From Oscillospiraceae bacterium (GTDB taxonomy: Bacteria; Bacillota; Clostridia; Oscillospirales; Oscillospiraceae): 5,410 bases of DNA. Positions 2,733 to 5,290 of the stretch are shown here, one piece after another. Both the position numbers and the translations under genes were made by a program. Where the stretch lies: assembly GCA_009786775.1 (NCBI GenBank), contig WQRL01000157.1:1-5410 (forward strand), written 5' to 3'. Under the pieces are notes generated by a model that saw nothing but the letters and a program-made list of their open reading frames with translations, was not told the DNA's origin and did not search any database. Positions within the stretch are counted from its first letter, which is position 1. Every line of letters starts with the position of its first letter.

Positions 2733-2793
2733 TGTGGTCTACCTTCACTTTCGTTTCATTTTTACAGTTCGTGAGCTGTGTTCTTAGTTAACT

Positions 2794-2799
2794 ATTATA
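2794..2799 (-). promoter_or_regulatory. Possible -10 box upstream of the stalk-domain gene
   Basis: A perfect TATAAT reads on the minus strand 62 bases before the ATG at 2732. No good -35 lies at 16-18 bases (the hexamer at 17 is AAAAGT) and there is no extended TG, so the support is weak. The same bases are the end of a 7-codon ORF, so the match may be chance. If it is not a promoter, the gene would depend on read-through from the promoter at 3138-3166. Confidence 0.3.
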
Positions 2800-2829
2800 C
2801 TCTTTTTTGATTGTTCACTTTTCACCTCC
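2795..2829 (-). other. Perfect Shine-Dalgarno site with a 7-codon ORF (possible leader peptide)
   Basis: GGAGGTGA (2829-2822), a full 8-base match to the 16S anti-Shine-Dalgarno, is followed after 3 bases by GTG (2818-2816) and the codons for MNNQKRV, then TAA. This is a better ribosome site than that of either exported-protein gene, yet no long ORF follows it. It could be a leader peptide or ribosome standby site in a long leader of the 1437-2732 gene. It could equally be chance. There is no evidence of translation beyond the site itself. Confidence 0.25.
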
Positions 2830-2866
2830 AAATTTCATGCATGTCCGTCACCAAGACATAAATTTG
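2829..2866 (-). repeat. Hairpin between the RNA terminator and the Shine-Dalgarno site
   Basis: On the minus strand, CAAATTTATGTC pairs with GACAT and, after a 5-base bulge, AAATTTG, giving a 7+5 base-pair stem around a 9-base loop. The last G of the stem is the first G of the GGAGGTGA site, so folding could change access to it. No U-run follows, so it is not a terminator. The function is unknown. Confidence 0.4.
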
Positions 2867-2876
2867 AAGGCCATAA

Positions 2877-3131
2877 TAAAAAGGCGCGCAGGGGGCATAA
2901 TGCCTTGCCTACGCGCCTCAAAAATACATTCTCAGCGTTTGTCCACAGTTAACAAACCAGCACCACAACAAAATCAGCCTTGTAAAAACCCATATAAATG
3001 AGTATACTGATTCAAGTCGTAGTGGCGGATATTTCCGTGTTTGTAGGCGTTTACTTTAAGTGGTTCCCTACATTCGCCGTTTGGTGTTGGTAGCACCTAA
3101 CGGTCGCTGCGGCCTCTTGTTATGGCCTCAT
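2877..3131 (-). ncRNA. Candidate structured non-coding RNA of about 255 nt, family not recognised
   Basis: Seen: the minus strand has a good promoter (3166-3138), a strong terminator (2918-2878) and no ORF between them. The interior is dense in complementary segments: CCGTT-a-GGTG / CACC-a-AACGG with a symmetric A-A step (3103-3077), GTAGG/CCTAC (3071-3043), CGGA/TCCG (3037-3026), AATCAG/CTGATT (3012-2972), GTTTGT/ACAAAC (2957-2937), and a possible closing helix CAGCG/CGCTG (3109-3105 with 2937-2933). The last two share one base and cannot both form fully. Together they suggest a multibranched fold. I find no tRNA or tmRNA signature, no RNase P core and no SRP Alu or GNRA helix. The lack of long 5'-3' pairing argues against ordinary 6S RNA. 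Alternatives are a riboswitch-type leader of the gene at 1437-2732, or a clostridial structured RNA such as raiA, which I cannot confirm from memory. Confidence 0.65.
2878..2918 (-). terminator. Strong intrinsic terminator of the non-coding RNA
   Basis: On the minus strand, an 11-base-pair stem AGGCGCGTAGG / CCTGCGCGCCT (one pair is a G.U) continues through a small internal loop into GGCA/TGCC with a 3-base loop. Five U residues (2882-2878) follow at once. On the plus strand the wobble would be an A.C mismatch and no T-run follows, so the orientation is clear. Confidence 0.85.
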
Positions 3132-3137
3132 TTCCGC

Positions 3138-3166
3138 ATGATATCACAATAATGTTACATATACAA
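3138..3166 (-). promoter_or_regulatory. Sigma-A promoter with extended -10 driving the non-coding RNA
   Basis: On the minus strand, -35 TTGTAT (3166-3161), a 17-base spacer and -10 TATCAT (3143-3138) are preceded by the extended element TG-A. AT-rich DNA (AATTAATC) lies just upstream of the -35 like an UP element. The predicted start is near 3131. The arrangement fits an abundantly transcribed small RNA. Confidence 0.65.
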
Positions 3167-3180
3167 GATTAATTGTGTGA

Positions 3181-3195
3181 AAAATCATTGATTTT
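3181..3195. repeat. 15-bp perfect inverted repeat upstream of the RNA promoter
   Basis: AAAATCA-T-TGATTTT is symmetric about a single base and lies 15 bases upstream of the -35 of the non-coding RNA promoter. Its size and place would suit a regulator binding site, but AT-rich palindromes of this length also occur by chance. Confidence 0.3.
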
Positions 3196-3353
3196 TTGGG
3201 TGTAGCTGATTTTTTGCCGCAATGTAATGTCTAGCTGGAGAGGAAATTGAAGGCAGCAGACCACCATTTGGCTTAAACCGCCGCCTCATAAAGCATGATT
3301 CAATAATGTCCTACCGACTCCACACCCCTTCTCTTGCAACACTTTGCTGCATC

Positions 3354-3422
3354 ATCCGCTAAAATGTGCATGCTTTATCCGCTAAATTGTGCGCGTTTCA
3401 TCCGCTAAAATGTAAATTCCTT
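3354..3422. repeat. Tandem array: three 23-bp units downstream of the ATPase gene
   Basis: Units begin at 3354, 3377 and 3400, an exact 23-bp period. The conserved core is ATCCGCTAAAATGT, with one A-to-T change in unit 2, and units 1 and 2 continue with GC. The last 7-8 bases of each unit vary. The array starts 53 bases past the ATPase stop codon. The same stretch read as protein gives spurious repeated peptides, so it is best seen as DNA or RNA sites. It pairs with the 33-bp array on the other side of the gene. Confidence 0.85.
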
Positions 3423-3441
3423 CTAATCAAGAGCAGCAAAC

Positions 3442-3455
3442 AGGCAACCTTGCCT
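3442..3455 (-). terminator. Short hairpin after the ATPase gene, weak terminator candidate
   Basis: AGGCAA-CC-TTGCCT is a perfect 14-base palindrome 20 bases past the ATPase stop. On the minus strand it is followed by GTTTGCTG rather than a U-run, so it is a poor intrinsic terminator. No better terminator is visible before the 23-bp array, so transcription may run through the array. Confidence 0.3.
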
Positions 3456-3474
3456 AACCATGCGCTGACAGCTA

Positions 3475-4821
3475 CTACAAAAACATTGCCATATATATGG
3501 GCAGGTGGAGTATGCCATCTTTTTCTATTACGTCCTTCGTGTAGAGAATGTAAGAACTTGAGAGCTTTGATGAAAACTTTTTCCTAAACTTATCCAGCGA
3601 CGAATGTGACTTGTAGCTACCTGACTTAATTTCAATTGGGGAGATTTTTCCATTTTCTGTTATTATGAAGTCGATTTCCATGTGGTTCTCACGGTTATTT
3701 TTGTCGTTGCGGGAGTAAAAATAAAGACTGTGCCCGCTTCTACGAAGCATTTGGGCGGCTATATTTTCCATTATCATCCCCTCGTTAATGCTGAGCTTAT
3801 CAAACAAAATTGCTCTATAGATTTCGTTTTTACTATACGGCTTGCCTGTAAAAGCATGTGTTACAAGAAGCCCTGTATCGGCCATATAGCATTTTTGTGT
3901 TGCAAAATCTGCGCTGAGCGCAAGCCCGGCATTGGGGTCGGTGGCATTGAAGCAGGTGTTGACCACCATGGCCTCACTCAACCACACAAATGAATCCTCA
4001 TAGCTCCTAAAGCGAGCCTGCTTTGATATAGATGACAGTTTGTATTTCTTTTCTTTTTTTGAGAGCTGGGCGGGAATTCCGTCAAATATTGCAAAAACTT
4101 TGTCTTCGTAGCCTGCGGCAAATTTAGACACATCGTCGCGGTACAGTTTCAATATACGCTGCTTAACAGCATCAACAGCCCCAAAGTCTTTGCCCTTCAC
4201 ATATTCAATCACCGCTTGCGGCATTCCCCCAACAAGAACATATTGCCGGAAGTCATTCATCACTTTCCTGTGCAGAGCCTGCCCCAGCGGCATTTTTTTA
4301 TCAAAGCATTGCTTTAGGAAAGGAACTGTGACCTCATCACCCATTGCCCACAGAAACTCTTCAAAGTCCAGCGGAAACATTTCCAAATGTTCTTCTTCAG
4401 AAGGGATTATAATATTTTGAACATTCTTCTTTAGCCTTATTAGCGAACCTGTTTCTATAAAGTCATATCTGCCGTCCTCAACAAAATACTTAATTAACTG
4501 CCTAGCACGCGGGAATTGCTGAACTTCGTCAAAAACAATTACAGAGGCTCTCTCGTGCAGAGACACTGAGTAAAAGGCCGACAATTTGGCAAAAAACAAA
4601 TCAAGGTTGGAACTGTCGTTATAAAACATATCCAAAACATCCTGCGGTGCATTGCCAAAGTCAATGATTATGTGGCTCTTGTACTCATTTTCAGCAAACT
4701 GCCGACACAGGAAGCTCTTGCCTACACGCCTTGCGCCTTCAACCAATATAGCGGTAACTCCGGCACTTCTTTTTTTCCACTCAAGCATCTCTAAATATAT
4801 TTTCCTTCTTAATGCACTCAT
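3475..4821 (-). CDS. AAA-family ATPase with DUF4143 and PD-(D/E)xK-like C-terminus
   Basis: Seen: 448 codons. ATG 4821 has an AGAGGA ribosome site 4 bases upstream and a promoter about 45 bases upstream. Walker A is G29-ARRV-G34-K35-S36. Walker B is VIVFD98-E99. A sensor-1-like ETGS sits at 123-126. The family hallmarks EMFPLDFEEFLWA (147-159) and VGGMPQAV (197-204) follow. The C-terminal part has GMIMEN (348-353), then D384 and E397-I-K399 in IEIKSG, the layout of a PD-(D/E)xK nuclease-like core. Length is typical and the gene appears intact. Known: AAA_14/DUF4143 proteins are abundant in anaerobes and archaea, but the cellular function and substrate are not established. Inference: an ATP-driven DNA-associated protein, possibly acting on the repeat arrays that flank it. 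It is transcribed alone; its divergent neighbour starts 560 bases away. Confidence 0.93.
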   Translation of the reverse strand: MSALRRKIYLEMLEWKKRSAGVTAILVEGARRVGKSFLCRQFAENEYKSHIIIDFGNAPQDVLDMFYNDSSNLDLFFAKLSAFYSVSLHERASVIVFDEVQQFPRARQLIKYFVEDGRYDFIETGSLIRLKKNVQNIIIPSEEEHLEMFPLDFEEFLWAMGDEVTVPFLKQCFDKKMPLGQALHRKVMNDFRQYVLVGGMPQAVIEYVKGKDFGAVDAVKQRILKLYRDDVSKFAAGYEDKVFAIFDGIPAQLSKKEKKYKLSSISKQARFRSYEDSFVWLSEAMVVNTCFNATDPNAGLALSADFATQKCYMADTGLLVTHAFTGKPYSKNEIYRAILFDKLSINEGMIMENIAAQMLRRSGHSLYFYSRNDKNNRENHMEIDFIITENGKISPIEIKSGSYKSHSSLDKFRKKFSSKLSSSYILYTKDVIEKDGILHLPIYMAMFL

Positions 4822-4863
4822 AATATCCTCTCAAACACTGCAAACAGGTGTGTTTTATTCTGC

Positions 4864-4892
4864 ATCATAACACACAAATCACGAAAAGACAA
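4864..4892 (-). promoter_or_regulatory. Promoter of the ATPase gene, overlapping repeat unit 1
   Basis: On the minus strand, -35 TTGTCT (4892-4887), a 17-base spacer and -10 TATGAT (4869-4864, 5 of 6) are preceded by the extended element TG-T. The predicted start is near 4857, giving a 5' leader of about 36 bases. The -35 lies inside the conserved core of the first 33-bp unit. Units 2 and 3 have ATGTCT at this place, so unit 1 is the only copy with a TTG start. A protein bound to the array should affect this promoter. Confidence 0.6.
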
Positions 4893-4979
4893 GAATAAAT
4901 TGCCCGCTTTTGCACGAAAAGACATGTATAATTCGGCGATTTTTGCACGAAAAGACATGTATAGATCGGTTATGGCTGT
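4881..4979. repeat. Tandem array: three 33-bp units upstream of the ATPase gene
   Basis: Units begin at 4881, 4914 and 4947, an exact 33-bp period (about three helical turns). The core ACGAAAAGACA is identical in all three. Units 2 and 3 also share TTTTGC before it and TGTATA after it, and unit 1 diverges there (AGAATA). The spacers between cores are not conserved, as expected for protein-binding sites rather than a recent duplication. The array spans the -35 region of the ATPase promoter and the DNA just upstream. Confidence 0.85.
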
Positions 4980-5036
4980 AACAGCGCTACTATAGCCACG
5001 GCAAGCGGGGCTTGACTGCAACATTTGCACAGATCA

Positions 5037-5183
5037 GTCGGACACGGGCAGGTGCTCTGGGGGAAAGTGGGGCGGCCGCAGTCCTGGAACACAAGTTTTG
5101 CAAGGGTTTCAAGTTTCTGCCAGAGTGGACGTGACTGACGTAGGCCGCCCCACTTTTTCACAGAGCACTTGCCCGTGTCCGAC
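5037..5183 (+). repeat. 147-bp foldback element with 41-bp imperfect inverted arms
   Basis: The arms at 5037-5077 and 5143-5183 match at 37 of 41 positions and enclose 65 bases. Three of the four differences are G.U pairs in a plus-strand RNA, and the fourth is G.A. On the minus strand these would be A.C and C.T mismatches. The loop can extend the stem with CAGTC/GACTG and CTGG/CCAG. The arms are GC-rich within AT-richer surroundings. No target-site duplication is obvious at the ends and no U-run follows. It could be a MITE-like non-autonomous element or a long RNA hairpin. There is no ORF for a transposase here. Confidence 0.8.
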
Positions 5184-5290
5184 GGACGGTTTCCGGCGGA
5201 TAATTTCCACCGAATGGTTTTAGATTTGGTCAAACTACAACATTTACATTTCGTTAAAATCTCTAAAAAATTCCTAAATCAACTTTTAAC

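Follow-up and report, generated by a model that had tools for sequence, protein, structure and literature searches.

Why should a single gene lie between two tandem repeat arrays of different period? The stretch of DNA analysed here (the window; 5,410 nucleotides, contig WQRL01000157.1 of an Oscillospiraceae bacterium) carries a gene for an ATPase of the DUF4143 / AAA_14 type, with three 33-bp units ahead of its start and three 23-bp units behind its stop. An earlier note on this DNA had taken the gene and the two arrays for a self-contained unit with recognition sites at both ends, such as a mobile, maintenance or defence module. We arrive at a different reading: the 33-bp array is probably bound by the ATPase, which would repress its own synthesis, and the 23-bp array probably once served the promoter of a DUF4143 gene from another lineage, now lost, and has been left behind as an orphan.

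The 33-bp array and the predicted promoter

Both arrays are real and their spacing is exact, as had been claimed. The best three-copy array at 33 bp was free of mismatches (0 over 12 bases; 5 over 12 in the best of 166 shuffled regions, each ~350 bp), and the best at 23 bp had 1 mismatch over 14 bases (8 over 14 in the best of 60 shuffles); both are far beyond chance. The TGCAC-type end that each array was said to turn towards the gene is, in our reading, a chance likeness, because CGTGCA is part of the 33-bp core but TGCA precedes the core in the 23-bp array, where it occupies the place of a -35-like box in the sequence of an intact relative (locus L132).

The upstream array was followed through an orthologue set consisting of the best 80 of 197 loci from a scan of species genomes (70-82% protein identity, flanks of at most 3 kb). 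One locus (L046) offered 60 bp of upstream sequence only and was left out, so that 79 loci were testable for the upstream core; the core, TTG(C/T/A)CTTTTCGTG or TTGCTTTTTCGTG (≤2 mismatches), was found in all 79. Counting copies in register over 80 loci, the window included, gave one copy in 4 loci, two in 19, three in 47, four in 6, five in 3 and six in 1, and the step between copies was 33 bp in 128 of 148 cases and 32, 34 or 35 bp in 14. The possibility that the array codes for a repeated peptide (33 bp is 11 codons, and the array stays open) was rejected because of these 14 odd steps, and because 23-bp arrays cannot keep frame.

Judged by consensus boxes, the array overlaps the promoter that serves its own gene. 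In the window the gene-proximal unit coincides with a -35-like box that lies 17 bp ahead of a TATAAT-like -10 box; a -10 box within one mismatch of TATAAT was present in 68 of the 80 loci (68 of 1600 shuffled), and the 17 bp spacing was likewise kept in 68 of 80. The bases after CGTG were AT in 43 of the 80 promoter copies and CA in 93 of the 148 copies further upstream, a difference that looks as if the promoter copy had been tuned apart from the others. The 80 loci are labelled Bacillota (66), Spirochaetota (3), and Synergistota, Myxococcota and Mycoplasmatota (1 each), with 8 unplaced, and most are labels of metagenome-assembled genomes (MAGs). Since the same core precedes the same gene across five labelled phyla, gene and 33-bp array seem to travel together from genome to genome. 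At one locus (L117) the gene's own array is preceded by a different one of 33-bp period (ATGCCGATTTTTTGACATAT, seen by eye in three copies), probably a further orphan or divergent array.

Privacy of the array and the neighbouring genes

A search for the core TTGCTTTTTCGTGCA (≤1 mismatch) in 29 orthologue genomes gave 65 copies, and the reversed pattern gave 10. When coordinates were compared by hand, 50 of the 65 copies lay at the DUF4143 locus (including two immediately past the L113 gene) and 15 elsewhere, although one of these 15, in the genome of L055, is possibly inside its DUF4143 gene. All 15 have one mismatch, so that every exact copy in the 29 genomes is at a DUF4143 locus. A wider regulon was rejected, with 15 off-locus copies against 10 for the reversed control. 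In the window's assembled genome there was no further copy of the 33-bp core at ≤3 mismatches, and the 23-bp core had five single matches, each with 3 mismatches; of 99 relatives searched with an 18-base piece of the 33-bp core (≤1 mismatch), only the window's genome had it. Two pattern hits occurred in viral contigs, one of them inside a repetitive glycine-rich gene, and no DUF4143 gene was seen by eye among the surrounding open reading frames (ORFs) listed.

No neighbour family (ORFs of ≥70 codons within 2.5 kb of 81 genes) recurred in more than 6 loci, the commonest, named from example sequences, being ABC ATPases (6), DUF4143-like ATPases (5) and RelB-like proteins (4). For short ORFs (≥30 codons) at a distance of up to 700 bp, the top three clusters, present at 64, 33 and 25 loci, look from example sequences like translations of the arrays, and the next was present in 5 of the 81 loci. 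The constant second gene expected of a toxin-antitoxin operon, or of an operon with a dedicated regulator, was thus not found, the top neighbour family reaching 6 of 81; a fast-evolving partner could escape these tests, since they join relatives found by BLAST. Because the array is private and no partner gene recurs, the encoded ATPase is the best candidate for its DNA-binding partner.

Arrays ahead of other DUF4143 genes

To survey DUF4143 genes more widely, up to ~370 bp upstream of 166 genes were scanned for three-copy arrays, with ≤4 mismatches over three 12-mers counted as a pass (the survey omitted L018, L038, L041 and L046; one contig entered from two collections, as L015 and as L056, which makes 165 distinct regions). 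Passes numbered 87 of 166, against 0 of 166 shuffled. Their periods were 33 bp (70), 32 bp (7), 34 bp (5), 23 bp (2) and 18, 39 and 40 bp (1 each); the 18-bp pass is of low complexity, and the 39- and 40-bp passes are AT-rich and weak. By our own split, 63 of 80 genes of the window clade passed, 19 of 58 among the remaining family-level homologues (18 of 57 once L015 is dropped) and 5 of 28 in a Pfam-wide sample plus L201; from these rates the arrays are frequent in some lineages and not universal. As a control, the neighbouring genes at the same loci gave 7 passes in 141 at ≤4 mismatches, and 3 of the 7 (L050, L088 and L112) adjoin further DUF4143 genes or remnants; L112 carries a second DUF4143 gene that has a 33-bp core of its own, GGCGCAAACGTG.

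Some more distant DUF4143 genes have other cores at 32-34 bp, including TTGAAAAGT, GGGGAAAATCTGCA, GTGTCATTTTGTGC and GGAATTATGTCACA, and cores differ between DUF4143 groups within the same bacterial family. Mean core similarity was 0.60-0.80 above 65% protein identity, 0.49 at 50-65% and ~0.2-0.28 below that; a graded co-divergence of core and protein was considered and dropped, none being seen below 50% identity. Some shorter DUF4143 genes (L165, L167, L202 and L141) have strong palindromes near the promoter, and L165 has two TTTTTGYATTACAATGCAAAAA-like copies 39 bp apart. Such palindromes are perhaps a third operator geometry among the shorter genes; as a third general class, dyad operators were rejected, 6 of 25 genes tested having a dyad reached by none of 40 shuffles.

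The 23-bp array and its lineage

A two-unit 23-bp pattern was found in 3 of 295 genomes of the order, and a related pattern in 4 of 391 genomes of the class, the window being included in both counts. At L132, three units spaced by 23 bp, the last being TTGCAAATTAGCGGAT, precede an intact 416-residue gene with -35- and -10-like boxes, whose product also matches the phage defence candidate discussed below (profile PDLC04790, E 2e-64). Relatives of this gene were present in 11 of 197 genomes of the order (E≤1e-30). Twelve sequences were read, the L132 query included, and 10 had 23-bp repeats before an intact gene, with differing cores; of the others, L254 is a partial gene with six 23-bp copies, and L242 was a wrong-frame ORF and was dropped. 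The 12 genes labelled 23 bp came together as a single, exclusive clade (support 100) in a tree of 142 proteins. The tree was made with FastTree, which gave long-branch warnings, and omits L242, L254 and the partial or broken genes L018, L034, L038 and L041; ten of the twelve labels came from reading the upstream sequence (L245, L247 and L250 fail the three-copy detector at 23 bp), and the other two, L148 and L149, were labelled by the detector alone and came from an independent Pfam search.

In core and period the window's 23-bp array agrees with an upstream array of this different DUF4143 lineage, to which, on sequence grounds, we assign it. The core ending in TAGCGGAT has six known places: before the intact gene L132, before the remnants at L050 and L126, at a contig end (G569), and, with no DUF4143 gene seen, in the window and at L125. 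A weak seventh place, G538, was also noted. At L050 the array is followed by codons ~231 to 416, and at L126 by about the first 43 and the last 31 codons. In the window itself the -35 and -10 positions of the array look degenerate in sequence. A tblastn search for a remnant of the lost gene in 2733-3352 gave nothing better than E 1.7 (queries were the 12 proteins, the wrong-frame L242 and the partial L254 among them, and the window protein), and no relative of L132 (E≤1e-30) was found in the assembled part of the genome, of which about one-third is missing.

The 23-bp and 33-bp lineages do meet in tandem: at L050 the remnant precedes a 33-bp-type gene and shares its strand. At L088 a DUF4143 remnant of ~50 codons (2541-2687 of the locus), with a 23-bp array of core CAAAGTTCATAG ahead of it, lies beside the intact 33-bp-type gene. 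The window's layout is best read as such a tandem meeting after deletion of one gene, and not as a bracket, because it alone among 107 loci has a convincing three-copy array behind the gene. Downstream sequence was long enough at 107 loci, and four of them gave a three-copy pass there: two through runs of N, one (L112) through a GA-rich 18-bp repeat, and the fourth was the window. Nine of 80 relatives (L053, L060, L085, L097, L106, L108, L112, L118 and L121) have a single core-like match (≤2 mismatches) no more than 420 bp past the gene, and L113 has two, which are further TTGCTTTTTCGTG core copies just downstream of the gene.

What the earlier note had proposed is supported in part. Its view of arrays and ATPase as one unit holds for the 33-bp array, which goes with the gene, and is not supported for the 23-bp array, which would belong to a different lineage. 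Nor are its recognition sites at both ends supported, one array being part of the gene's own predicted promoter and the other without a convincing counterpart at other loci. The note had itself suggested looking for orthologous loci that lack the arrays, and by that comparison the upstream array stands and the downstream one is refuted.

The ATPase

The defence-module part of the same proposal fared better, since the protein matches a listed anti-phage candidate, PADLOC PDC-S01: residues 4-448 of 448 align with 2-433 of 452 in PDLC04792 (E 2.3e-108). Pfam matches are AAA_14 (E 3e-22) and DUF4143 (E 1e-23). Residues invariant in 52 aligned sequences are G29, G34 and K35, which we take to be the Walker A motif, D98 and E99 (presumably Walker B), and E352, E382, D384, E397 and K399 in the C-terminal part, which we regard as a PD-(D/E)XK pattern. 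In the 23-bp lineage the motif pattern was found in 9 of 12 sequences, with the aspartate kept in 8 of the 9 (L132 has A).

The predicted structure (pLDDT, the predicted local distance difference test, 89.8) has as its top structural matches 2qen and 2fna, then CED-4, plant NLRs, EfAvs5 and ORC/Cdc6. From order and fold, residues 1-324 are predicted to form a STAND-like core (nucleotide-binding domain, helical domain, winged helix), followed by a predicted PD-(D/E)XK domain with conserved motif residues. Of the four domains, the winged helix was the best conserved when the window protein was compared with 75 of its 79 orthologues, and in comparisons with 22 genes of other clades it most often came last (9 of 22); the domain test did not single it out as the sole specificity domain. 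Residues 131-140 form a loop with the lowest model confidence (block mean 54), and residues 121-150 are well conserved within the clade and different between clades; the loop is a candidate DNA-contact loop of the window protein.

Other features of the window

The window is one entire contig (C157) of a 345-contig MAG that is 69% complete; its features are collected in the table. The genes on its minus strand are the DUF4143 ATPase, a protein with a Cu-amine-oxidase N-terminal domain and a D-Ala-D-Ala carboxypeptidase; a dacF relative (E≤1e-60) was found in 4 of 19 genomes of the genus, the window's own included, and the nearest (73%) has other neighbours, so that it offers no empty site to set beside the window.

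Coordinates of the arrays, the predicted promoter and the ATPase gene within the window
Feature	Position	Strand	Basis
DUF4143 / AAA_14 ATPase gene, 448 aa, PADLOC PDC-S01 (PDLC04792)	3475..4821	minus	
Three 33-bp units, operator-like array in predicted promoter	4880..4978	minus	
33-bp cores, TTGTCTTTTCGTG or near (gene sense)	4880-4892, 4913-4925, 4946-4958	minus	
Predicted -35 box TTGTCT, part of gene-proximal unit	4887..4892	minus	sequence and arrangement in most of 80 loci
Predicted -10 box TATGAT, 17 bp from -35 box	4864..4869	minus	sequence
Three 23-bp units, likely orphan array of 23-bp DUF4143 lineage	3352..3422	minus	
23-bp cores ATCCGCTAAAWTGT (gene sense ACATTTTAGCGGAT), middle unit one base different	3354-3367, 3377-3390, 3400-3413		

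A hairpin repeat of ~158 bp lies at 5034-5186 (arms 5034-5077 and 5143-5186; RNA fold -99.4 kcal/mol, z -9.2). It has at least 41 genomic places (at least 136 bp, 83-100% identity), with 39 of 110 candidates from its own genome scored, and was absent from all 19 relatives searched (12 of the same genus); it is a palindromic family resembling miniature inverted-repeat transposable elements (MITE) or repetitive extragenic palindromes (REP), and is private to the window's genome among those searched. The incomplete genome has eight DUF4143 domain matches, on contigs C6, C81, C85, C157, C186, C198, C237 and C258, and hairpin copies also occur on C81 and C258.

Discussion

In the mechanism that we favour, the ATPase would bind the tandem cores of its own promoter array, and cooperative binding is proposed because the period is fixed. 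Bound ATPase would cover the -35 box, the filled array would occlude the promoter, and self-repression would hold the ATPase at a low level; if the family is anti-phage, infection could strip the ATPase off the array and lead to more ATPase synthesis.

Several observations weigh against this account. The margin of the winged helix within the clade is small (0.795, and 0.782 for the ATPase domain, over 441 sampled pairs), the 20-residue stretches with the greatest clade specificity are outside it, among them 121-150 and 61-90, and the winged helix of STAND ATPases is often without DNA binding. Arrays are not present in all DUF4143 genes, as the 19 passes among 58 other family homologues indicate. 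Below ~50% protein identity core similarity equals background, with no graded relation, and the rank correlation of core with protein (Spearman) was 0.03 and -0.10 with 8 representatives each, the promoter picker of that test being possibly wrong in some representatives, e.g. L016.

A host regulator or nucleoid protein, rather than the ATPase, may bind the array and control the gene; we consider this unlikely. The arrays do overlap the predicted promoter, and a dedicated repressor, RptR, is reported to bind three promoter direct repeats in an E. coli defence island (PMC12255303). A host regulator would, however, have to account for the same core before the gene in five labelled phyla, for cores that differ between DUF4143 groups of one bacterial family, for off-locus copies close in number to the reversed control, and for the failure of any regulator gene to recur nearby.

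Of similarly low standing, in our estimate, is a more elaborate form of ATPase binding, a one-gene tripwire in which the ATPase-nuclease would sit as an ATP-dependent helical filament on its private array until infection frees the nuclease and opens the promoter. The periods of 23 and 33 bp exceed whole 10.5-bp turns by ~69 and ~51 degrees, and an excess near 60 degrees, the rotation of one protomer of a six-fold AAA+ helix, is a lead only. Successive units (23 or ~33 bp, whole turns plus about one protomer's rotation) would then engage successive subunits; lineage-specific addresses would allow several modules per genome without cross-talk, and dead modules would leave arrays behind.

A role of the array chiefly in loading or holding the ATPase-nuclease, as an initiator- or iteron-like assembly on tandem repeats with promoter control as a by-product, is quite improbable, since the gene-proximal unit mostly falls on the -35 box at 17-bp spacing, as transcription control predicts, and no neighbour family, hence no shared replicon or integrase gene, is present in more than 6 of 81 loci. 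A mobile element bounded by the two arrays and carrying the ATPase as cargo or transposase (compare the multiple terminal repeats of IS21-like elements) would fit tandem repeats on both sides and a gene scattered over five labelled phyla, but is hardly credible when a convincing downstream array occurs in 1 of 107 loci, the two arrays would come from different DUF4143 lineages, and no neighbour family exceeds 6 of 81 loci (no transposase-profile search was made). IS21-like ends, suggested by the outward TGCAC motifs, were dropped because the 33-bp core precedes every testable orthologue and the 23-bp array precedes another DUF4143-type gene.

If private and specific to its lineage, such an array would offer a direct biochemical handle on PDC-S01, namely a predicted DNA target, a testable off switch and, in the comparison of 23-bp with 33-bp arrays, a built-in specificity control. 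Orphan arrays could also flag sites of DUF4143 gene loss.

Relation to known systems

PADLOC lists PDC-S01 as a single-gene phage defence candidate, and both the window protein and the L132 protein match it. One source describes PDC-S01 as an ATPase fused to a PD-(D/E)-X-K member, ranks it by frequency as the fourth defence across prokaryotes (29,494 bacterial and 9,986 archaeal instances) and calls validation of most such candidates pending (PMC12988326); a rumen survey gives it as the most frequent single locus (PMC13356809). Among the open-licence papers listed in literature searches, none describes such arrays at DUF4143/PDC-S01 genes in its title or abstract.

Among structural relatives, the archaeal STAND-like proteins PABY2304 (2qen) and SSO1545 (2fna) share 14-16% identity with the window protein; being only 350-352 residues long, they leave the C-terminal PD-(D/E)XK part outside the match. 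Plasmid iterons are similar in layout, with tandem units of about 22 bp next to the gene whose product binds them, and with autoregulation. Unlike at iterons, no replication gene was noticed in the window, the loci share no widely recurring neighbour family, and the gene-proximal unit falls on the predicted -35 box of the ATPase gene. The RptR-controlled island of E. coli resembles the window in having three direct repeats in a defence promoter, there occupied by a repressor, a separate small regulator whose 9-bp repeats hold TAGCTA (PMC12255303); at the DUF4143 loci, unlike there, no separate regulator recurs, the spacing of the units is 23 or 33 bp, and it is the ATPase that is proposed to bind them. 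Operator arrays through which genes regulate themselves are already known; what is new here is one that is private to its gene, keeps a locked period and follows the lineages of a major defence candidate.
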